Origin: Owenia fusiformis
Taxonomy: Eukaryota; Annelida; Polychaeta; Sabellida; Oweniidae
DNA: 64,000 nucleotides
Assembly (NCBI GenBank): GCA_903813345.2
Contig: CAIIXF020000009.1
Span: forward strand, 21,043,759-21,107,758
Direction of reading: 5' to 3'
Positions 17,601 to 48,900 of this stretch are shown here, piece by piece. Position 1 is the first letter of the stretch. Every line of letters starts with the position of its first letter. Below the pieces are notes generated by a model, which ran no database searches, was not told the origin of the DNA, and saw only the letters and a program-made list of their open reading frames with translations. The translations under genes were made by a program, and so were the position numbers.

Positions 17601-19632
17601 ACAGTACTTTATGAATTATTTGAAAAAAGATTTTGGTTTGATATTATTTAAAAAGATTATGCACATATAGAGTACTGTTTGGTGTTATTTAAAAAATATT
17701 ATATACACTTATTGTACAAAATGATAAAGTTATATTATATACATAAAATAAAGAGTATTTACATGTGGATAACTGTATGATATTATTTAAAAAACTATGT
17801 GTTCTCTCTCATGTTTTTCAGCCGCAAGAATCCATTCAAACTGCTAGTCACTCTTGATGAGTTTTCCCATTCCTCTGGGGAGTTGTATTGGGATGATGGG
17901 GAGTCATTGAGTAAGTACATAAAGCAGGAACACCTTTAGAAATGGAACACCTCTTTTAGTGGAAAAGTTCAGAGTTCCAACTGACCTTATATTAAATGAA
18001 CCTCAATAAGAAGTGGAACATCTCCCAAGTGGAACACATTTTAGAAGTACCAAAGGTGTTCCACGTAGACAGGTTTTACTGTATTTTATATTGTGTAACT
18101 TACACATATTCAGTTGTTCTGCGTGTCAAAATAGAGTCAGAACTTTTTCGAAAATAGAACTTAGTGTAGAACCCAGTTAGTTAAAAATATCAAGAACTGT
18201 CCCATTTCATCCAGTCAGCAATCAGCTCATTTGTAATGCCTTTTGTGGCAAATTTGAAAGTGGTCACCAGTCACATTTTACCAGCTGAAAATGAAATACT
18301 GTATCACTATTGGATGATACAATATATTCATTATATGAACTTGTTTTTTCAGATACTCATGACAGAAAGCTCTACACTTTAATCAGATTCAAGACCTTGA
18401 AAAATAAGGTACGTGTGAAATCCTACATTATCAAATTCTTAGTTTTTATTGTGGATATTTCTTTCACTTATGGTATATGTTCATCTTTAAGTATTACATG
18501 TGTGGTTGATGAAACAAAATGTTGAAGTGTGAAAGAAAAGTTCCTGTTACATTTGAAGGCCAAATAGTTTTAAAGAAACTGTCAACTTTTGAGAGTTCTG
18601 GAACAAAATATTATCAGACTACTTTGAAATAAACACAAATTAGTACAAGTGTTATAGAATCAACCTTCTTGAAAGCATCGTCTAACTTTATAATATTCTC
18701 CAGCTTTTTTGTTAATGGTGCTCGGTGGTCATTTGTAACAAATGGCAGGTAGTGACATTTTGCATGTTAATGCCGTGTATATCTAGTTATGTTGAAAAGT
18801 AGTGTAGGAGTAAACTACCTTGATTTTACTGTGTCTATATTTTCCCTGGGTTTTACTGTGTCTATATTTTCCCTGGGTTTTACTGTGTCTATATTTCCCC
18901 TGGGTTTTACTGTGTCTTTATTTTCCCTTGGTTTTACTGTGTCTTTATTTTCCCTTGGTTTTAAAGTGTCTTTATTTTCCCTGGGGTTTACAGTGTCTTT
19001 ATTTTCCCTTGGTTTTACTGTGTCTAAATTTTCATGCAGATCTACAGTAGGGTCGACATGCTGGGATACAAAGATGATTTACTTAAACTAGAGCAGATGA
19101 CAGTCTTTGGTATGGCACAGAAACCAAAACAAGTCAAAGTGAAATCCAACCTCCATGATGATTTTTACTATGATGATTCACACAATGTGAGTACAAATTT
19201 ACAATCTTGTTTCACTACATTTAAACAACATTTAGTAAACTTAAACATGTTCTTCAGGTTGGTTATTAAATCAAAAAAAACAGTTTCTTCTATTAGCACC
19301 ATTTATTATATGAAATCAGAGAATGTTCCAATCATTTCTGGATCCTTTATCAACTGTATTAAAACTGAATTGAAGCACTACAACTACAATGTGTGACTTC
19401 CACTGAATATTGCTTGTTACCTTTAGTCACATTTAGGATGTAGACCAATCAGAGAGTAAGGAATGTGACAGTCACATAATAATTTTACATATTTAACATT
19501 AAGCTCACTAGTTGTATTACTGAATACTTGCGTTCACATTTCCAGGTACTTTATGTGAACAAAATGAACATCACATTGTATGAAGCTTTCGTTGTCACCT
19601 GGACCTTTACAGAAATAAAGGATCTCTCATAG
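14456..19632 (+). CDS. GAA: GH31 lysosomal alpha-glucosidase-like gene, last five exons
   Basis: Five exons (14456-14637, 17822-17910, 18353-18408, 19040-19186, 19546-19632) join in frame with GT-AG borders into 186 residues and a TAG stop. They encode the C-terminal beta domains of a family 31 glycoside hydrolase: HVNAYFPRDTWY, LAAPLDIINLHVRAGHVIP, then LTTTESR, GELYWDDGESL and a terminal VVTWTF. These match lysosomal alpha-glucosidase (GAA), which releases glucose from alpha-1,4-linked chains in lysosomes; sucrase-isomaltase and maltase-glucoamylase are related alternatives. The catalytic domain exons (WxDMNE and the acid residue) would lie upstream and were not found in the 14 kb to the left, so this is either the tail of a gene with very long introns or a truncated copy. 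A complete lectin gene lies on the other strand inside the first visible intron. Confidence 0.85.
15013..15262 (-). CDS. C-type lectin exon 4, sugar-binding part
   Basis: Encodes WQDGTGMSYTNWAPGEPNNG, then QECMIIREDDGKWDDIEC and IGICKK, with the EPN motif. The acceptor is atttcag. The reading frame continues past a possible donor to a stop at 15013. Confidence 0.85.
15013..16273 (-). CDS. Secreted C-type lectin (single CRD), four exons, nested in a GH31 intron
   Basis: Exons 16222-16273, 15983-16098, 15574-15722 and 15013-15262 join in frame into 188 residues. Residues 1-17 (MMALVVVLATLLGVSLA) are a signal peptide. The rest is one C-type lectin-like domain: paired cysteines at CGDGNW and NNCYTL, a VCTQ cysteine, WLGG, then EPN (the triplet associated with mannose-type ligands), KWDDIEC in place of the usual WND, and a final IGICKK. 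Calcium-dependent sugar binding outside the cell is therefore likely, perhaps in immunity, though WDD for WND could change calcium binding. The whole gene lies within one intron of the opposite-strand alpha-glucosidase gene. An alternative donor (AAG then GTAATC, after 15099) directly follows IGICKK, so the last residues may come from another exon. Confidence 0.85.
15574..15722 (-). CDS. C-type lectin exon 3
   Basis: Encodes VCTQEYNAVGATIFSATENQ through WLGGNRIGREHPDF. The acceptor is attgtag and the donor GTCACA. Confidence 0.85.
15983..16098 (-). CDS. C-type lectin exon 2
   Basis: Encodes ETAPKLADPRLCGDGNWLYF and the second CRD cysteine (NNCYTL). The acceptor is ttgctag and the donor GTAGGT. 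Confidence 0.85.
16222..16273 (-). CDS. C-type lectin exon 1, signal peptide
   Basis: The start is ATG ATG at 16268-16273, with 17 hydrophobic codons plus one base. The donor is GTAAAAAC. Confidence 0.8.
16274..17821. other. Intron of the GH31 gene upstream of the lectin gene
   Basis: AT-rich. It presumably includes the lectin promoter next to 16273, but no clear TATA box is seen. The motif gatattatttaaaaa recurs about every 70 bases at about 17640-17790. Confidence 0.4.
17822..17910 (+). CDS. GAA: GH31 gene, visible exon B
   Basis: 89 nt encoding SRKNPFKLLVTLDEF and GELYWDDGESL, the most conserved C-terminal motif of the family. The acceptor is tttttcag and the donor GTAAGT. Confidence 0.9.
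18353..18408 (+). CDS. GAA: GH31 gene, visible exon C
   Basis: 56 nt encoding THDRKLYTLIRFKTLKNK. The acceptor is ttttttcag and the donor GTACGT. The phase joins both neighbours. Confidence 0.8.
18828..19030 (+). repeat. 27-bp minisatellite in the last GH31 introns, about 7 units
   Basis: The unit actgtgtctatattttccct recurs every 27 bases (18828, 18855, 18882 and on). Because 27 is a multiple of three, the array leaves an open frame encoding repeats of FTVSIFSLG. It ends directly against the acceptor of exon D. I take it as intronic. Confidence 0.9.
19040..19186 (+). CDS. GAA: GH31 gene, visible exon D
   Basis: 147 nt encoding IYSRVDMLGYKDDLLKLEQM and onward to FYYDDSHN, with GTGAGT as donor. 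The acceptor gcag lies right after a 27-bp minisatellite. It corresponds to the distal beta-sandwich region, which is weakly conserved. Confidence 0.8.
19546..19632 (+). CDS. GAA: GH31 gene, last exon
   Basis: Encodes VLYVNKMNITLYEAFVVTWT, then FTEIKDLS and stop (TAG at 19630). The VVTW ending matches the usual end of lysosomal alpha-glucosidase. An AATAAA lies inside the coding part (about 19614); a better placed polyadenylation signal is near 19906. Confidence 0.8.
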   Translation, partial: VLYVNKMNITLYEAFVVTWTFTEIKDLS

Positions 19633-30663: not shown

Positions 30664-30929
30664 TTAATCTCCAAGGAGATCAGTACTTATAAGTTCCTCC
30701 CCGGTTGTTCCCCCAGTTGCTCCTACTTCAGCACTAGTGTCCTCTTCCTCATCTCCTTCCTCATCCTCTTCATCATCAAACTGATTGGATTTGTCATATG
30801 TGAAGGTACTCTGGGATAGGTCTACCTCTATTGGGAACCAGTTGCCATTTTTCATACTCACATGGCATTCATTGTGGTAGTGAGACATTGCATTGACTAG
30901 TTTCTGTAGCTGGAATACTATATCTTGGA
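30664..30929 (-). CDS. PICK1: PICK1 exon 10, acidic C-terminus
   Basis: Encodes QDIVFQLQKLVNAMSHYHNE, NWFPIEVDLSQSTFTYDKS and the acidic tail, ending LLGD and TAA. Confidence 0.93.
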
Positions 30930-33900
30930 CTGGAAAATATGAAAATTGAGTTATTTATATTTTACTATAAGAACATCTGTCCATGAGGAATTTCAGTCAG
31001 TATGGAGAGTGTTCACTGTACACAGGTTTTATTGTGCTTGTACACATGATACAAGTTTGTGCTTGAAACAGAGATACACAAGTACATTCGGCATACACTT
31101 TCCTCAACAGAAATTCATTAATGCAATAAAAGCTATACTATAGTATATTCTTAAAATCCATAGTTCAATTTTAATGAGTCAAAATATCCTGAGCATGAAT
31201 TAATTGATGAATCAAGAAATATAATATGTAAAACATAGATTCTGCATATTTATTGGGGTTTTAGATTGATGAATGTAAGAGATGTGAATAAACTCACCAT
31301 GTTTCTGATCTAGAAGTTCTAGTTTTACTAAAACATCACTTCTCATTTTGGCAAATTTCACCCTGGCCATTTGGCGACACCTCAGCACCAATCTGAAGGT
31401 ACAATGTTGAATATTTATTTAAGTCATTTCTAATGACTACTTTAAACTAAGATATAAGCCATACTTTCAAATATTCAAATATACCATGCATTCACTGTCA
31501 GAATTTTCTCATATACTGAAATATTCTTTCCTGGAAATATAACTTAAAACCTATATTCATAGGCGCCAAACTTTACTCATCAAAGAAACTCACCTACATT
31601 GATGCTTGTCTCTACGAAAGAAACTCACCTATATTCATAATTGCCAGTCTCTACTCTATAAAGAAACTCACCTATATTCATAATTGCCAGTCTCTACTCT
31701 ATAAAGAAACTCACCTATATTCATAATTGCCAGTCTCTACTCTATAAAGAAACACACCTATATTCATAATTGCCAGTCTCTACTCTATAAAGAAACTCAC
31801 CTATATTCATAATTGCCAGTCTCTACTCTATAAAGAAACACACCTATATTCATAATTGCCAGTCTCTACTAAATAAAGAAACTCACCTATATTCATAATT
31901 GCCAGTCTCTACTCTATAAAGAAACTCACCTATATTCATAATTGCCAGTCTCTACTCTATAAAGAAACTCACCTATATTCATAATTGCCAGTCTCTACTC
32001 TATAAAGAAACTCACCTATATTCATAATTGCCAGTCTCTACTCTATAAAGAAACTCACCTATATTCATAATTGCCTGTCTCTACTCTATAAAGAAACTCA
32101 CCTATATTCATAATTGCCAGTCTCTACTCTATAAAGAAACACACCTATATTCATAATTGCCAGTCTCTACTCTATAAAGAAACTCACCTATATTCATAAT
32201 TGCCAGTCTCTACTCTATAAAGAAACACACCTATATTCATAATTGCCAGTCTCTACTCTATAAAGAAACTCACCTATATTCATAATTGCCAGTCTCTACT
32301 CTATAAAGGGGCTCTTGGAGGGCAGCATAGCTGTACTCTTCATCATCCATTTCTTTTACCTTCAGGCAGTATGACTAAAAGAAAAACAGACAAGGCATTT
32401 ACATGCAAAACGTCACCACCTACCATTTATTACAGACACCAACCGCCAAATGCCAAACACCAACCACCAAACACAGTCCACAAAAAATTTGGAGACTATG
32501 ACAATATGAGTACATGTATATCCTATGATTTATGAACCTTAAACATTGAATACCATGCCTGAACCATGAGATGATATCACACAATTCATGGTGGTTAAGA
32601 GGCATATTCTATTGTTGTTTTTGCATGATATCCTAATAAAGTTCCAATTGTAAACAACAGATTTTACTTGGTTTAGCTGCAATCGAAAGTTAATCAATAT
32701 TGATTGAAATTTGAAATTGAAATGATTGCAAAACATTCATGAAGAATGAGGCAATATAGGCTATCAGCTTCACCCCAAAATTTAGGTTATCGGTACCAAG
32801 TTAGGGGAATAATGCTCATAGTGATTTTTTGCAAGGTAAATACCTCCAGAGTAAGAAAATATGTGATAGCATTGTAGGAGTGGTAGCTTATGGGTGTTAT
32901 CGCCCATTTTTCAAAATGGCTGCTATTGCGCTTTTTACCAAATAAAAGAAATTAGGCCATCAGCTTCACCCCAAAATTTAGGTTATCGGTACCAAGTTAG
33001 GGGAATAATGCTCATAGTGATTTTTGCAAGGTAAATACCTCCAGAGTAAGAAAATATGTGATAGCATTGTAGGAGTGGTAGCTTATGGGTGTTATCGCCC
33101 ATTTTTCAAAATGGCTGCTATTGCGCTTTTTACCAAATAAAAGAAATCATATCTAAGTATAATGAGAGGCAAAAACAGTGATTTTGAAGTCTATATATGG
33201 GTTTTAGGGGTCAAGGATTTCATTTATGTCAAAATCTAAGTCATCAAAAAATTGCTTTATATGGAAATCCAAGATGGCCACCAAAATGGGTCTCAAAACA
33301 AATATGTTACTATTGATATAAGATAAAAAAAAAAGCTCAAAGAACGGTTAAAAAGTGACTTTGGAGACCATGAATAGGTTTTAGAGGCTGAGGATTTTAT
33401 TTGTGTCTAAATTTAAGTAATAATAGAAATCCTTTATATGAAATTCCAAGATGGCCACCAAAATGAGTGCCAAAATGAATATGTAAATTATTTATATCAA
33501 CTCAAAGAACAGTTAAAAAGTGCTTTTGCAGACCATGATAGGGTTTTAGAGGTTGATACAGATTCCATCCATGGATAAATCTAAGTGATTAAAAAATACC
33601 TTTATATAGAAATTTGAAAAGGCTGCCAAAATGGCCAAACATGTGGCTGCTAAAATGAATTTATACACACATAGAAAAGTTGGAAATGTAATGTACGTAA
33701 TAGATATCTGAAACTAGGTTTCAGGGGAAAATGGTTTCAATTTAGCCTTTACCAGAGTCATCTTAACCTTTCCTCATATTAAAATCCAAAATGGCTGCCA
33801 AAATGAATATTTACATGTACATACATGTATATCTTTAGCATTAACAGAGGATGTTGGCAAGTGATTGTGGTATCTTTGACTAGTTAACTCAAGGGCGTTA

Positions 33901-36900: not shown

Positions 36901-39900
36901 CCTAAAACCCAGAATTAGACCCTAAAATCACTGATTTTGCCTCTCAGAATGCTTAGATATAACTTCTTTTATTTGGTAGCAAGCGCACCGGCGGCCATTT
37001 TGAAAAATGGGTGATAACACCTATTAAGCTACCACTTCTGCAATGCTATCACATATTTTCTTTTTCTAGGGGTCTAGACCTTCCCAAAAATCACCATGGC
37101 CATTATTCCCCTGATTTGGTACCGACCAACCCCCCAGGCTGATCGCCTAATATGTGAGTATTAGTTATTTATTAAATGTTCCACACATACCAGATATTCA
37201 AACTTTGCATCAAGATATTTCTTCACTGTCAGCCTAGTATCAGGTACAGCTTTGTTTAGGTATGTGTTCAGATCACTTATCATCTGCAATACAAAATACA
37301 CATAAATAACACCAGAACAACGGCAACGCCAAAGCGTAGCGAATCCCATCGAACAGAAATGGCTGGCATTTTTACAAACGAAGCGCAAATATCATAAAAC
37401 AACACACCAGAAAGGCCACCATTTTCAAAATTGTTGCTCACTAGCCAAGTTGTCATCAGAAGAAATAATATGCTTTTAAGTAGCCACCTCTAAAATTTTT
37501 GAAAAATCGCACACGTACTTGTAAAATAACACACATAAAAATGGTGGCCATTTTTCAAAATGGCCGACTACTCCCCAAAGTTTTATTAGACAATGTGCCA
37601 TGCTTAAAGTATTCACATATCAAATATGAACAAAATCGCTCCACTACTTTTCGAGTTATAGTAAAATACGTTAAAATGGCGGCCATTTTTCAAGATGGCC
37701 ACCTTCTACCAAAAGCGTCATTAGAAATAGACGGTGTACCATGCTAAAAGTATTCACATACCAAACATGAACAAAATCGCTCCACTACTTTTCGAGTTAT
37801 AGTAAAATACGTTAAAATGGCGGCCATTTTTCAAAATTGTTTTCAAAATGGCCGCCTTCTACCAAAAGTGTCATAGGACAGTGTGCCATGCTTATACTAT
37901 TCACATACCAAATATGAACAAAATCGCTCCACTACTTTTCGAGTAATAGTAAAATACGTTAAAATGGCGGCCATTTTTCAAAATGGCCGCCTTCTACCAA
38001 AATTGTCTTTAGACAATGTGCAATGCTTATAGTATTCACACATCAAATATGAACAAAATCGCTCCACTATTTTTGAGTTACAGCAAAAATTGTAAAATGA
38101 CGAGTAAAGGCCGCCATTTTTCAAGATGGCTGCCATGTGCTTTTTTAATATCTACATTTGTAGCATTATTAATGTAGATTATTTATAATTTTTTTACATT
38201 TAAAACATATTGCTATTACAGTTTTACATATTGCACCTTAATTACTGTAAAATCGTCACTAAAATGGCCGCCATTTTGAAATGAGCGGCTATTTTGAAAA
38301 TCGGCTTTCGAGCAGAACTTCTACCCCCATAGGGTATATGTGTACAAAATATGAACAAAATCGGGCCAACGGTATTTGAGTTATTGCCCGGACGGACGGA
38401 CGGACGGACGGACGGACGGACGTACGGACGTACGGACGTACGTACGGACGGACGGACGGACGGAGCCGTTCCCTATATCCCTCCGAACTTCGTTCGATGG
38501 GATAATAATACAAAATACACACAATTGACATAATACAAAAACACACTTAATTAACATAAAACAAAATACACACAATTGACATAATACAAAATACACATAA
38601 ATAACATGATACAAAATACACGCAATTGACATAATACCAGCCATAATGTTTATCAGTTGATTTGAATGCTTCTATATTGTATAGTTTCAAATTCAAAATC
38701 TAGTGGTCTCAATAACAAAATGATACATAACAGGGATTATGAAATATATTTGGATTGACATTTTTTATTGTAACCCTATTACCCCAAAAAAGTTATTATA
38801 ACATTCTTACTGGTTTCACAGTCTTCAACATCTTGATGGCGAATTTCTCAATATTTCTATGTGCCTCACCAAACTCAGAGAATGCCTCACTGGCTGATTT
38901 CTGAGGCTCTCTCACCCCTATTGCACAGAAAACCTCACCAAATGCTGGAGAAAATAATGTTTCACTAGTTAGAAAAATATGAAGTTGATACATTTTTCCG
39001 AACATAATAATTACATTGAAGTATTACTGGTTCATCTAACACGGACATATTTGAAAAAATTTATGTAAAATATTTCGTCCTACATCCATAGGACTTCTTA
39101 AGTTACTGTGGCAGGAAATTTGAAAATTTAGAGGGATGTCTCAAAAGTTGGTGGTATATGGGGTCCAAATACACTCCTCTGTCTCTGTTCATAGATGGCG
39201 CTAAAATTTAATATTGTTCCAGTCTATATGTTTGTCACATTCCCATAGACTGGAACAATTTTTTGGAACAGTTAGATCTATCAGTTATACTTCAATATGA
39301 ACATTTCCAGACGGATAAACATTCATTCTCATATAATAATTACACTTATTACAATAAAACTAATTATTTCATTTTTCCAGATGGATAAACATTCATTCTC
39401 ATATAATAATTACACTTATTACAATAAAACTAATTATTTCTATTTTGAAACCTTGCAGTTAATCTATTGCAATGTAAATGAACTATTACAAATGATATTA
39501 TAAATATTGATTTTGAATTTCAACCAAAATATTGTTTAGATCAATGAAACAGGTGATAAACATGCAATTATCAAAATTCTAAAAAACTAATGAAATGAAT
39601 TGACAGTCTTGCATCAAGCCTCTGCAACCAACCCTTCCTAATATAAATTTCCAAGGCCTTATTAAAGCAAGAGAATGTGCATTGGACAACACAGAGGCTT
39701 GATCTAAGACTACATTTCCAGAATGATTGTAGGTAAAAGGATTATACATGCTAACTTTAACAAACATTTACAAGACATTAACATGCAAAATGTCACCACC
39801 TACCATTTGTTACAGATACCAACCTCCAAATACCAACCATCGACAAAAGATTGAGACTATAAAAGTGCCAACATAATAAAATGACAAGCTAAAAGCTTAC

Positions 39901-42900
39901 AACTATATAGTATACTTACCAGTTGCTTAGTTACGTCAATGTCATTATTTTCTTGTGCATAATAAATGTAGAAACCTTGACAAAAAGTCAGTAAAAAGGA
40001 AGAATAGAGAGCTTTATTCCTTGTCATCCCCACTCAGCAAACAAAGAATGTTAATGCAATGAAAGTTTAAGCTTATACAGCATGCTTCTGTATTCTGTAT
40101 TCCCGTAGCATCATCTAATTGCACTCATATTCAAGACTTAAGCAAAGTTTATGTTAAAATTATCAAAGTTATTCATTCAGAGAAAGGGAAACAAGAAATG
40201 AATGACCCAGTACCATGTTAATAGAATGAAAGGCAAATATATTAGCAGTCCTTCCAATGTATTACCAAAAATCACCCAACCATGAAAATGTCCTTAAAGT
40301 TACCTCTATGAGACTGGGCCAGATCGAAAAATGCTCTGAGGAGACGTTTAATGTGTGACACTAGGCCAGCATAAGTTCCCCCTGTCATTTCCAAGTCTTC
40401 TAACTTCTTAACTAAAATATCTAACAGAAAACACGGGCATTACAGCACATATCACAACTAACTGATAAATCATTATTCTCTGATATGTTAAGAAAGAGGC
40501 TCCTGTAGGCGATCATTCTGCGGATTAATATGAATAACAGAATGTACTGTCATATATTCTGGGATATACAAGTATAAAAGTTTTGATATGTACTGCGTGA
40601 TACAACATCAAAGCATCAACATGTCTACAATAATACAAATATCTACATTTATAAAGTGATTCATTACAAAGCAAATATAGGATGTGCATTATGTGTCTTC
40701 TGTTGCTCTTACTCATATTTGGGAACTATCTGTTCTGTTTGATAGGAACCCTAATATGAATAAGGCCTAATGAAACAGACAAACTGTTGAGGCATGTGAT
40801 TTTTAAATCTTATATAGGCCTATAGCCTATATCTGGCCTATTGAAAAAAGAAGAGAAATATGATCAATGTCTATAATATAACAAATTATGCATGACATAT
40901 TCTCATTTCAAAACTTAAAGTTGAATATTTCACCATCAACATTTAAGTTCCATTTTGAACATTTTTAGAAAATAACTGCTGCATGTTATCCATCTTTTAA
41001 AAGTCATCTGCCTCATAAGTTTCATATCCAGAATATATGGAACATAAAGATGCAACTATTCTTTGTCAATTTTATTAAATCATTCAGCTAGAACAGTTAA
41101 AATCTACAAAAGGCTGTGTTAAGGATGGTCTGGAATTATACGTGGCAGCAATCAATAAACGTCAAAACTATGAAATAACACTATGGATGAGAAATAAACA
41201 GAAATTCAGCGATCTCCTCAGTTTTATTTTCTCAGGAGTGTGCTAAATTCTATTTCACCCATTTTGGTCAAAATATGTCAATATTTCAGCTATTTGACAG
41301 AGTGCAAACATATTTTCAACAGGGTGTCACTAAATTTTATGAATAATCAACAGCTCTTTGTTGCTCTTATGCTTGGGAGATCACTGAATTACTACCTAAA
41401 AATAACTAATTATAACGATACAAAAAGTAAGAACATAAAACAATACAATATTGTGAATCAATTATGAATCAAACCTAGGATGAAGAAAAGTAATTTCTTA
41501 ATCCTAGAACAAACCAGGACCTGTTTAACTATATAACAAAAAGGTATCATATTTTGTTTTACTATGTATTTCCATATGTGGTAGACTGTTGGTGTTTCTA
41601 AGCCATAACAGTTACTAGTTCTCATACTTTAGGCCAAAAGATAAAATATCTGGTTATCATTCTGAAGGCTAGTAGAAAAACAAGTCTGGTTATCATACAA
41701 GAGACATGCATTTATGAACATATAAAATAAACATGGTTATGTATGTTCAGCATACTCTTATGTGCTTGAGAGAGATCAAAAAATGATCTTAAAACTTTCT
41801 TTGTGTGTGTCATCATCCCCTGATACATAATGGCAACTGCTTCCATCTCATTCATCTTCTTAACCATCCCATCTAGAAAAGTACAATTAAGGACTTTTAA
41901 TAAAAACATTGGCATATAAAATGTAACCCAGTGCAACCATTGGTACATTAAAATTGACACATTAAGTGAAATAAACAAATGCAGTAAAATTTATTGTCAT
42001 ACAATATAATAAACGTTAAGTGTAAATCATGTAAAGCAAATAACATTAGATAACGTAAGTAATACTTCATCATCTTTCATCATTAATACATGTTGGAATT
42101 TGATTATTATCTTGGTTCTTAGATATTTGATGAGACAATGATCATGAAGGATATGGTTCCTTTCCTTCCAGTCTACATTTCCAAACAAACTAAATAATTG
42201 AGTCACTGTACATGCTTATGTTTATGTAAAGAACTTAACATACCATTACATAGGATTGCTCTGCTAAGACCCAAGGCATCTGCTGTACTGGAACTCATTG
42301 ACTCAACTATGGAATGTTTCATCTTTTTAAGAACTAAAAAGATAATGAAGAGCAAGTTAGCAACTAAGTATATCCCACAGGGCAAAGTTCTTGATTGACA
42401 CAGTTCTAAGAAAGTACAGATTGCACTAATCCCTATAAAACATATGGATCACTATACTTATTTCTTAATCAATACTTTTACATAAATAATACAAAGAGAA
42501 GTACACAATTGGAAATCAAATAACAAAAATACCCATTATTGTCTAAATTCGATTTGGCTTATTAGTACTAAATAAAAATTTCAAAAAGGCGCTTTAATGT
42601 CCTGTTGAAGAACCCCTATTCTAACTTTCGAAAATGGATGCTAGCAATACTATCCAATCCAACAGGAATCTCTTTGTTGAGATTCGATCAACTTGAGTTC
42701 TTCTGAGAAAATGAGGATTTCAGCAAGGGTGCATTGACTTTACATGGTGACATACCTGATGGTATCCACACGCTAAGTCAATGGTCAATGGTATATCTCC
42801 CCATGTTGAGTCAACGCGCACTGGCTAAAATCCTCATTTTCTAAGAGGAACTCAAGTTGATCGAGTCTCGACAAGTAGATTCATGTGGGACAGTTTTGCT

Positions 42901-45900
42901 AGAATCCATTTTCAAAAGTAAGAATAGATGTTCTAAAACAGGACATAGGGCTTGCTTTTCGGAACTTTTAGTTGGTACTATTGGTTCCCATTGAAGACTT
43001 ATTCATACTATAGTTCAAATAAATCAGACTATATATAACTAGAAAAACAGCAACTCCACGGAGTAGCAAATCCCACCGAACAAAACATGTTTTGATAAAA
43101 AAAATTGAGGCAAATATACATCCACTGGTATTTGAATTATCAAAGATTATGTCTTTATGGTTGCCATTTTGAAATTCAGCCGTCATCTTTAGATTTCTTC
43201 TTTAGCAGAGAATGTCCGTCCAATGGTATCTGGGTTATCAAAGATTACTTTTTTAATGAAAAACGGCAGCCATTTTAAAATTCAGCTATCACCTTTGAAA
43301 TTTCTTCTGAAGCAGATCTCCTTTTTCCCTAAACATCAGCATATAAAATTGGAACCAAATCCATCCACTAGTATTTGATTTATCATTAATTACGTTTTTT
43401 TACGAAAAATGGCGGCCATTTTGAAATTCAGTGGTCATCTTGAAAATTTATTTTTGAGCAGATCTTCTTTGTCTCTAGGCATCAGCATATAGAATTTGAA
43501 CCAAATCCGTCAACTGGTATTTGAGTTATCAAATGAAAATCCCTTCTCGAGCAGAGCTCCTATGTCCCTAGGCATCATCATGTAAAATTTGAACCAAATC
43601 CATTCAATGGTAATTGAGTTATCAAAGATAATGTTTTTTAATGAAAAATGGCCGCCATTTTTTGAAATTTAGCTGCCATCTTGAAAATCCTTTCTTGAGC
43701 AGAGCTCCTATGTCCCTAGGCATCAGCATATAAAATTTAAACCAAATCCATTCAATGGTATTTGAGTTATCAAAGATAATGTTTTTTTACGAAAAATGGC
43801 CGCCATTTTGAAATTTAGCTGCCATCTTGAAAATCCTTTCTCGAACAGAGCTCCTATGTCCCTAGGCATCAGCATCTAAAATTTGAACCAAATCCATTCA
43901 ATGGTCTTTGAGTTATCAAAGATAACGTTTTTTTACGAAAAATGGCCGCCATTTTGAAATTTGGTGGCCATCTTGAAAATGTCTTCTTGAGCAAGGCTCC
44001 TTTGTACCAAGGCAACAGCATATAAAATTTGAACCAAATCCATCCACTAGTATTTGAGTTATTAAAGATTACATATTTTCCGAAAAATGGCCGCCATTTT
44101 GAATTAAGCGGCCATATTGAAAATTCCTTCTCGAGCAGAGGTCCTTCACCCATAAGGCATAAGCCTATAAAATTTGAATGAAATCCGTCAACCGGTATTT
44201 GAGGTATTGCCCGGACACACGAACGGACGGACGGACGAACGGACGGAAGAACGGACGGACGAACGGACGGACGGAAGACGGACGGCTTCTCTATATCCCC
44301 CTCGAACTTCGTTCGGTGGGATAATTATTCTCTCACTCCAAAATAGTTTTACTGTAACTACTATAGGATCTTACTTATATCTAAAGTTTTGCCTCTTTTC
44401 ACCTCAGCATGGAGTTTGTTGTAGTTAATAGTAACCTCAGTCTGAAATCAATCATTGACATAACCATCAATTATCTACATATATAGCATTCAGTACATTA
44501 AGGATTTAAAAGTAAGGTTTAAAGCATGATTGCCCAATGTAAGATAATGGCATTAAGTCACCTGGTTGATCCAATCAAATACCAAGGGTTGAAAATGATT
44601 GCTACTGGAAGTCAGGCAGAAGTTAGATTTGAACCCTGGGTAAATGTACATCAATAAGATGTATTTAGGAGGGCAAAGTGGGCTGAAGGGTTATCAGTTT
44701 AAATGACTTTGTGTAAAAAAAAAGAACCTTGAAATTTATTATGCCCGGTCAACCTTTAAGTTTTCAATTCTGGCCCATGCATTCTATCCTTATGTCCATT
44801 GCTGATTTTTTCGTTAATTTCAAATAAGTGCTTTCATTATATGTAGTCTAGATGTCATTTTAAGAATTGCAGTTGAACCGCAACATATACCCACTAGGGT
44901 GTCTAGCAGCTTGTTTTTATAGTGTATATTATATAAGAATTATGAAATAAATAAATTGAATTGAAAAAAAAAATTGTGGCATATTCAATAATTTATTAGT
45001 TGGATCTCCTTCACTTAACTATGAACAATCCATACATCACACTACATGTATCAATATTGATGTTTATTTGCAAAAGAGGAGCTCAAACAAATTGATTTAT
45101 ATGTTTAGCATGAATAAACTAAACGATCAAAGCACTTTAAGGGTTGAACTTTTGAACTCTACAAAGCTGTTTTAATGAATTCAGTTAACATGACAAAGAA
45201 TAGGCCAACTGTATAAATTTGAAAAGCGTTGCTGTTATTCCAATCAAAAATGATGGTACACATACTTAGTATGATGCAGTCTCAACAAGTGCCTCAGAAT
45301 ATCATATAATTTCATATAGAAAAATGAGCCAAAAAGCTATTTGGTCAATGTGTCTTGCAACTTTGAGCTAGACTGTATTTCAGTTATATTTACCTTTACA
45401 GCTTGAATCATACGTGCTACTTCCACTTTAGTCTTTCCTTTCACAGACTGTCCACTGACACCCACAATTTCATCACCAGAAGCAAGAGTGGCGTCTTTGG
45501 CAGCAGGTGTGTTGTCGAATATTTGCACGACATAAAGACATGGACACAGGGGGGCGCCACCTCCAATACTTATACCAATCAGGTTCTGGGAGTCTTTGAT
45601 TAGTGTCACACTCCCAGATGTCACTGTCATGCCCCTGAAACATATACAAATGTAATTGTATTATAAGCTGCATTTTCATACTTCTTACAATATTACGCAT
45701 TCTAAAAAATGATTCCCTATTTGCAATCCTTGGATAAATATAAAGAGATAAACTTGTTATTGTACATTTATATTATTATCAATTCATCACAGGTTTTCAA
45801 ATTTCCCGGCTATTATATTTCGGAAATCTTCCAAAACTTGCTAAAAGCGCGAAATATAGTAGCACGCGGAAATTACCAGGAGTAGTATCTGAATTCTGAA

Positions 45901-48900
45901 AGCAACATAAAACTGAATGTGCAAATGTAGCACATTGACAGTATACGGTCATGTAAGTTCCTTTGAGAATGAGGAATTAAAACCATTTGATTCCCTACAT
46001 GGTATCTTCATATCTGCTCCGAGTAGGCATACAAGCATCATGATCATCTGTTAATCCATCCATATCGAATGTAGGAATCAAATCATAGTCATACTCCCAG
46101 CCATACTGTCTTGAACTTTGATTCATTTTACTTCACACACACATATATAGCCTTATCTGAATACCTATTGTGCCTTTTCAATTCAACTAAGGATGTGCCT
46201 CTGCATTTTACTATTCAGCTGAAAAGCACATTTTGTTCACTCAATTGTGCTTTTTTGTACCTGTTTATTTTTTATGTTGTTGGATATAAATGTCAGTAAA
46301 TAAGATTCAATAATTTTACAATACGGCTGCAACATATTTGCTTAGTACAACTTTTGTTCCTTAAGTTGAATAATATTTTGTAAACATTCGAACTTTACAG
46401 ACGCCAGATAATCGCACTTTGTGTTTCCATATAAAATGTGCAGCTTAACTGCATCTGTATTTGTATATTTTGTATTATATCCAAAAAATGTCTAATATAT
46501 GTCTTATTTCCCTGTAAATTAGCCAAGTGTTTTATTAGTATAACAAGTGTATTGCTACAGACGGATATCATTACTGGATTCGGGATCAATACCATATGTT
46601 ACCATGCATTAGTAGATACTTATACTCATTTCATACAGAAAATTCAAACCAGCAGTTTCCAGAATATTTTTGCAATTACTATACAGTAAAACAACTGTTA
46701 AGTAACACTACAAGCATTGGCTAAACATGCTTATCTAGAGAGTCTTTAATAACATTGGAGTCAAAAATTGAACCGGAAATTATTCATGTTCAAGTTTTTG
46801 AATTTTTTTCACAAACATAGTTTTAAATATATGTATATTTGCAAATTATTGTATTACAGTACTTACCATTACTTTATAATCATTTCTTATTGTATTACTC
46901 ATGAAATAATTTACAGCATTTGTAATATGCATAAAGCCAGCATTTCAAATAAATTCATAACCATGATTAGAAAAATAACTAGATTTGTGAAATTGAACAA
47001 GTTCAATTTAAGACTCCAGATTTATTTGACCTAGATAGATCAGTAAAGAGCTGAGTAAGTAACTGAGTAATTAGCTGAGTAAGTACCTTAGTAGTAGTTG
47101 AGTGAGTAGCTGAGTAAGTAACTGAGTAAAAAGCTGAGTAGGTAGCTGAGTAAGTAGCTGAGTAAGTACCTGAGTTAGTAGCTGAGTAAGTTGCTAAGGA
47201 AGTAATAACTAATTAAGTAATTGAGTAAGTAGTCAAATAAGTAGCTGAGTAGGTAGAGAGGTAAAGTAGGGTATGCAGGAATTTTTGAAAGTATATTTGA
47301 TCAATCTGCATCGTGAATACTGGCAAGTGCGAATTTCAAACTTCAAAATGGCGTAGAATCTAAACCGGGGGTCGGATTGCAATTTTAATTTCAGATCCAG
47401 ATTTCTGAGGAAATTCTACCCCTAATTCATAACTTTCATACTTTAAAATTGGAGAACTTTTTATTTTGACCTACATTTCGGACACCATATCTCAAAAGTG
47501 GGTCAAAAAACTTATTGACGGCAAAATGTTAACATTATTAGCACACTCTTTGCTACAAGTTTACAAAATTTCGGAGAATATCATTGGAGTGTAGTGTCAG
47601 AATCGCAAAATAAAAAAAACTATGAAATTGACCTTGATTTTGAACTAGGTATTTTGGTGTCCAAACTTTGAAGGAAAGTAGCTTTTGAGGTCCCCTTCTT
47701 CTATGGGCTTTCATTATGTTTAACATTGGGCACCAAATTTAGCGATTTTTGAGATTTCAAAACGCCATAACTTCAGAACAAGTAGTCGGATCGAAATTTG
47801 GTTTGCAGATCTAGATTTCTGAGAAAATTCTACCCTTAATTCATAACTCATACGTTAAATTTGGAAAACTTTTAACTTTGGCCTACTTTTCGGACACCAT
47901 ATCTCAAAAGTGGGTCAAAATACTTTCTGACGGCAAAACGCTAACACTATTAGCATACTCTTTGCTACCTGTATACAAAATTTTAAAGCAAATCATTTAA
48001 ATATAGTGTCAGAATCGCAAAAATAAGGGAAAACTATAAATTTGACCTAGATTTTGACCTAGGCATTTTGGTGTCCAAATTTTGGAGCTAAGTAGCCTTC
48101 GAGGTCCCCTTCTTTAATAAACTTTGATTATATTAAGCTGTACTCAGTCTATATCTCGTATTTTACACTTCAAAAAAATCTTTTTTCCCATTGACATAAC
48201 ATGGGGCAGCAAATTTAGCGATTTTTGAGCTTTCAAAACACCATAACTTCCGAACAGGTCGAATCAAAATTTGATTTGCAGATTCGGATTCCTGATAAAA
48301 ATTATACCTCTTATTCATAACTCATACGTTACATTTATAATTTTTTTATTTTGACCTACTTTTGGGACACTATATCTCAAAAGTGGGTCAAAATACTTTT
48401 TGACGGCAAAAGGCTAACACTATTAGCACACTCTTGGCTACATGTATACACAATTTCGAAGAATATAATTAAAGTGTAGTGTCAGAATCGCAAAAATAAG
48501 GAAAAGCTTTGAATTTGACCTAGATTTTGACCTAGGCATTTTGTTGTCCAAATTTTCAAGATTAGAAGGTTTTGAGGTCCCCTTCTTTTATGGGCTTCCA
48601 TTATGTTTAGCTGTACTTAGTCTATATCTCGTATTTTACACTTCAAAAAAATATTTTTTCCCATTGACATAACATGGGGCACCAAATTTAGCGATTTTTG
48701 AGCTTTCAAAACGCCATAACTTCCAAACCGGAAGTCGGATCGAAATTTGGTTTGCAGATTTGGATTCCAGAGAAAATTCTATCCCTAATTCATAGCTCAT
48801 ACGTTAAATTTGGAAACTTTTTATTTTGACCTACTTTTCGGCCACGTCATAACTTCCAAACCGGAAGTCGGATCGAAATTTGGTTTGCAGATTCGGATTC

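Follow-up and report, generated by a model that had tools for sequence, protein, structure and literature searches.

Two tandem versions of a BAR-helix exon in the PICK1 gene of Owenia fusiformis, probably used one at a time

The DNA analysed here, a stretch of 64,000 nt from Owenia fusiformis (the window), carries on its minus strand, from ~46.1 to 30.7 kb, a gene for PICK1. Between its PDZ domain and its stop lie 10 exons when exon 5, of which there are two copies termed 5a and 5b, is counted twice, and all have AG/GT borders and compatible phases. The features, in the order of transcription, are:

45394..45634, minus strand: exon 2, PDZ domain (homology; Pfam PF00595 in the assembled protein)
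44375..44441, minus strand: exon 3 (homology, splice borders)
42244..42333, minus strand: exon 4, 90 nt, the common upstream exon, ending ...ILCN + G (phase 1) (splice sites; 24/30 residues as in human PICK1)
41756..41872, minus strand: exon 5a, upstream of 5b, 117 nt, phase 1-1, with 39 codons for BAR helix 1 that are rich in Met (six) (open frame between AG and GT; positions 34-71 of the Arfaptin profile)
41705..41710, minus strand: TGCATG, a suggestive Rbfox-type motif 46 nt past the weak 5a donor (motif scan)
40421..41755, minus strand: intron between 5a and 5b, 1335 nt, with no third exon copy
40304..40420, minus strand: exon 5b, downstream of 5a, likewise 117 nt and phase 1-1, for the same BAR segment (open frame between AG and GT; positions 35-70 of the Arfaptin profile)
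38811..38944, minus strand: exon 6, 134 nt, the common downstream exon, starting CA/TTT, (T or A)FGEVF (splice sites, homology, Arfaptin profile)
37191..37283, minus strand: exon 7, BAR (homology, splice borders)
32274..32374, minus strand: exon 8, BAR (homology, splice borders)
31298..31392, minus strand: exon 9, BAR (homology, splice borders)
30664..30929, minus strand: exon 10, acidic C-terminal tail and stop (homology, splice borders)

A first coding exon is provisionally placed at 45999-46126 (MNQSSRQYGWEYDYDLIPTFDMDGL...); its donor, AT/gtaggg, is poor, and a stop follows immediately after. With one copy of exon 5 the provisional model has 443 residues, its first coding exon being uncertain. 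Whichever copy is used, the assembled protein matches PF00595 (PDZ) at 52-129 and then PF06456 (Arfaptin-like BAR) at 147-378, with E of 6e-73 or better, and so the order of PDZ followed by Arfaptin-like BAR by which PICK1 is recognized is present in one protein. The likeness to mammalian PICK1 comprises the same domain order, the acidic C-terminal tail and an ungapped alignment of 350 residues, with 51-88% identity per exon, to the human protein, the sequence of which was used as a guide only. In this guide sequence the arginines at 158, 185, 197 and 247 agree with published numbering (PMC8884907).

Exons 5a and 5b are where an earlier note on this DNA had placed them on the minus strand, and both have the length of 117 nt and the phase 1 at each end that it gave them; both are free of stops and flanked by AG and GT. 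The borders of 5a read ...cttttctag/ATGGGA...ATAAGA/gtatgc and those of 5b ...ttctgttag/ATATTT...ATAGAG/gtaact. Entry to either copy from exon 4 is from ...TGTAATG/gtatgt (phase 1) and exit is into exon 6 at ccag/CATTTG (phase 1), and neither the 4-5a-6 nor the 4-5b-6 splice, between the exon 4 end at 42244 and the exon 6 start at 38944, brings in a frameshift or a stop. Tandem exons are adjacent homologous exons of equal length and phase for the same protein segment, and 5a and 5b are such a pair. The splice sites of both had also been called good, but they are not equally so: the acceptors are alike in the two copies, the donors are not. By a simple consensus score the donor of 5a (AGA/gtatgc) is the weakest internal one of the gene, in the top 16% of GTs in the window, while that of 5b (GAG/gtaact) is in the top 1.5%.

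The peptides, each including the split first codon, are DGMVKKMNEMEAVAIMYQGMMTHTKKVLRSFFDLSQAHK for 5a and DILVKKLEDLEMTGGTYAGLVSHIKRLLRAFFDLAQSHR for 5b, and the identity at 17 of 39 residues claimed for them is exactly reproduced. Their ungapped BLOSUM62 score is 103, whereas 100,000 shuffles of 5b reached 35 at most, and among the 46 open 117-nt segments between AG and GT on both strands of the window only 5a and 5b are alike, the next best score being -7. Random sequence of 117 nt with the base composition of the introns would lack stops with P=0.04. At the DNA level 65 of 117 nt are identical, with 21/39, 29/39 and 15/39 at codon positions 1, 2 and 3 (Fisher test, position 2 versus 3, P=0.0014; positions 1 and 2 versus 3, P=0.007); dN is about 0.5 and dS is unmeasurable or over 1. 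Third positions look nearly saturated while the protein sequence is conserved, which argues that both copies have long been under selection. Neither has decayed, since 20 of the 39 residues of 5a and 22 of those of 5b are in common with the human guide sequence. The codon-position pattern, the freedom from stops and the retained splice sites bear out the suggestion in the earlier note that both copies stayed PICK1-like and that neither is dead; judged from their sequence, 5a and 5b are an old tandem exon duplication with both copies under long purifying selection.

In a search of the 498-Mb genome exactly two exon 5 copies and one PICK1 gene were found, and neither a further PICK1 gene nor a retrocopy recording a splice form; others may lie in stretches absent from the assembly as searched. 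The neighbouring introns hold no third copy of the exon, the flanks of 5a and 5b have no similarity beyond chance words that could be a scar of the duplication, and scans of viral and prokaryote collections gave, as expected, no animal relative. Maximum likelihood distances over the 39 sites are 0.88 between 5a and 5b, and 0.67 and 0.70 from the copies to the human guide sequence. The copies thus diverge more from each other than either does from human, as would be seen if the pair is very old and vertebrates lost it, or if the duplication was later and was followed by accelerated change. Human PICK1 presumably has a single version of the exon 5 segment, unlike that of Owenia fusiformis.

On the Arfaptin/BAR profile both copies align without gaps to one and the same stretch (positions ~34-71), in agreement with the earlier claim of one common segment. 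The register of the helix and its conserved residues are preserved in both, while other residues are altered. Either copy alone gives a full-length PICK1 with an intact domain, scoring 245.7 bits to Arfaptin with 5a and 252.8 with 5b, which is slightly closer to the family profile; with both copies skipped the score is 198.4 bits, a loss of ~50 bits. The segment was aligned to the arfaptin-2 structures 1i49 and 4dcn and to human residues 147-185 (numbering of the guide sequence), and the stretch of 1i49 and 4dcn to which it aligns we take to be the first helix of the arfaptin-2 BAR. At human positions 149, 153 and 156, 5a has Met where 5b and the human guide sequence have Leu, and in total there are six methionines in 5a versus one in 5b. 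Position 158 is Ala in 5a, Met in 5b and Arg in human, and position 185 is Lys, Arg and Arg respectively. The 17 positions identical between the copies are without clustering on a helical face, and for this reason one preserved helix face is not claimed. By the numbering of the human guide sequence, the sites of the substitutions R158Q and R185Q presumably fall within the exon 5 segment. In human PICK1 these substitutions alter membrane deformation and fission (PMC8884907). As they alter fission and map inside the segment, on that numbering, the segment can matter.

Tandem homologous exons that are spliced singly are a well-known and usually ancient class, with examples in Cacophony, muscle myosin heavy chain and, as flip/flop, the AMPA receptors. 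Mutually exclusive exons are typically matched in length and alike in sequence (PMC6071210), and the tandem exon pair of the voltage-gated calcium channel Cacophony has 16/39 identical positions (PMC9741552). The PICK1 pair resembles such exons in being adjacent, of the same length and phase, old and diverged to a comparable extent (17/39 versus 16/39), with one segment present in alternative versions. It differs in that exclusivity in the known cases was shown by transcripts and here is inferred from genomic sequence, and also in its carrier: membrane proteins, ion channels among them, are overrepresented among the known cases, and PICK1 is a BAR scaffold. PICK1 isoforms have been reported from pig testis (PMC11452158), with no mention found there of paired BAR exons in tandem. 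The exon-pair arrangement is of a known class, and PICK1 as its carrier is without report in the open-licence literature searched, where neither tandem nor mutually exclusive exons of PICK1 or of a BAR domain were found, in line with what the earlier note had supposed. Two other BAR genes of the same genome, one Arfaptin-like (C2:7763500-7769500) and one ICA1-like (C7:18703500-18709000), have Pfam Arfaptin matches. The names arfaptin and ICA1 were given to them by motif recognition and are presumptive. Both belong to the same BAR subfamily as PICK1, but in each the matched segment is single, with no tandem exon pair, and the exon borders differ from those of PICK1, the arfaptin gene having profile positions 4-118 in one exon.

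Because length, phase and profile position all match, the substitution of one copy for the other is the best-fitting reading, and we give a probability of about 0.72 to an old tandem duplication of exon 5 having led to two alternative exons of which each mRNA has one, in mutually exclusive fashion or nearly so. If instead 5a and 5b were usually or often included together, the product would have a 39-residue internal repeat in its first BAR helix. The frame would indeed be kept, as the earlier note had it, with 39 residues repeated within that helix in a 482-residue model; the splice sites of either copy can be used, and against Arfaptin a protein with both copies still reaches 257 bits, split over two stretches. 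However, one helix of an antiparallel, compactly packed dimer bundle would become longer by ~11 turns, or ~58 Angstrom as estimated from helix geometry, and both copies map to one profile segment with each alone giving an uninterrupted domain match, so that habitual joint inclusion is quite unlikely.

The inequality of the donors, together with the better profile fit of 5b, is what would be expected were 5b constitutive and 5a an optional or rare minor exon, without regulated exclusivity. This too is unlikely, as 5a retained PICK1-like residues and its frame while third positions neared saturation, and from this it can be reasoned that 5a has been used enough for selection. That either copy is the remnant of a dead exon, or an artefact of assembly or haplotypes, is very improbable and largely refuted by the protein-level constraint, the open frames and the splice sites in both, and by shuffles never reaching the observed similarity; the low nucleotide identity of the copies excludes haplotype duplication.

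With mutually exclusive use of 5a and 5b as what appears to be the best reading, 5b, with its strong donor, would be the default form and 5a, with its weak one, a regulated form dependent on some factor. Rbfox proteins at downstream sites promote inclusion of the preceding exon, and inclusion of 5a may perhaps be brought about via the candidate Rbfox-type site downstream of its donor; the density of TGCATG across the gene is 0.45/kb and a single site is within chance. A motif scan revealed no clear enrichment for Nova, MBNL, PTB, CELF, ELAV or STAR motifs. Exchange of the copies may alter helix packing or dimer stability and hence membrane bending or partner choice, the basis for this being that several leucines common to 5b and human PICK1 are methionines in 5a. 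Our preferred guess is that the 5a form has a softer helix core and altered dimer stability.

Neither double inclusion nor double skipping would be removed by frameshift or nonsense-mediated decay, as both exon lengths are multiples of 3. Several ways in which exclusivity might be achieved were considered. Steric exclusion is ruled out by the 1335-nt intron between the copies, a distant branch point is unsupported, the AG-free zones measuring 21 and 37 nt, and so is U2/U12 incompatibility, both copies being GT-AG. A G-rich element at 39779-39848 was considered for pairing, as a docking site with selectors, upstream of both exons. It was rejected because its pairing energies are about within the range of shuffles (8 per pair), it ranks 40 and 9 among 1698 windows and related copies are present elsewhere in the 64,000 nt. 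This dispersed G-rich repeat (GGTTGGT...GGTAGGTGGTGACATTTTGCATGT) is, at 91-94% similarity, found both at 39779-39848, in the intron after 5b, and at 32401-32456, just upstream of exon 8, and a further copy is at 18734-18769 on the opposite strand.

PICK1 drives AMPA-receptor endocytosis and the budding of hormone granules, and shapes synaptic and secretory vesicles. Owenia fusiformis can probably make two versions of it. A long-kept pair of interchangeable 39-residue versions of a BAR helix would be a natural experiment on how BAR sequence relates to membrane bending and dimer choice, and the pair sits in the segment that, on the numbering of the guide sequence, contains the fission-altering human R158Q and R185Q (PMC8884907). 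If the reading is true, mutually exclusive splicing, for which channels and muscle proteins are the familiar examples, would extend to a membrane-curvature scaffold. More tentatively, PICK1 in this lineage, and perhaps phylum-wide or from before the protostome-deuterostome split, might yield two BAR-helix isoforms through regulated mutually exclusive splicing, the choice between them setting dimer stability, or homodimers versus heterodimers with ICA1, and hence vesicle budding according to cell type.

Repeats are also present elsewhere in the gene. Introns contain, at 37538-38088 and 43226-44207, tandem arrays with periods of 135-146 bp, the units of which have AAAATGGC(G/C)GCCATTTT-like stretches. 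At the end of exon 8 there is a 43-bp minisatellite (31617-32308, minus strand; 16 copies, 97% identity), and its unit comprises the last ~29 nt of the exon plus the donor (GTGAGT or GTGTGT), so that the exon 8 splice donor is tandemly repeated more than a dozen times. As the 43-nt unit is not divisible by 3, splicing from donors further along the array would in most cases put the transcript out of frame.
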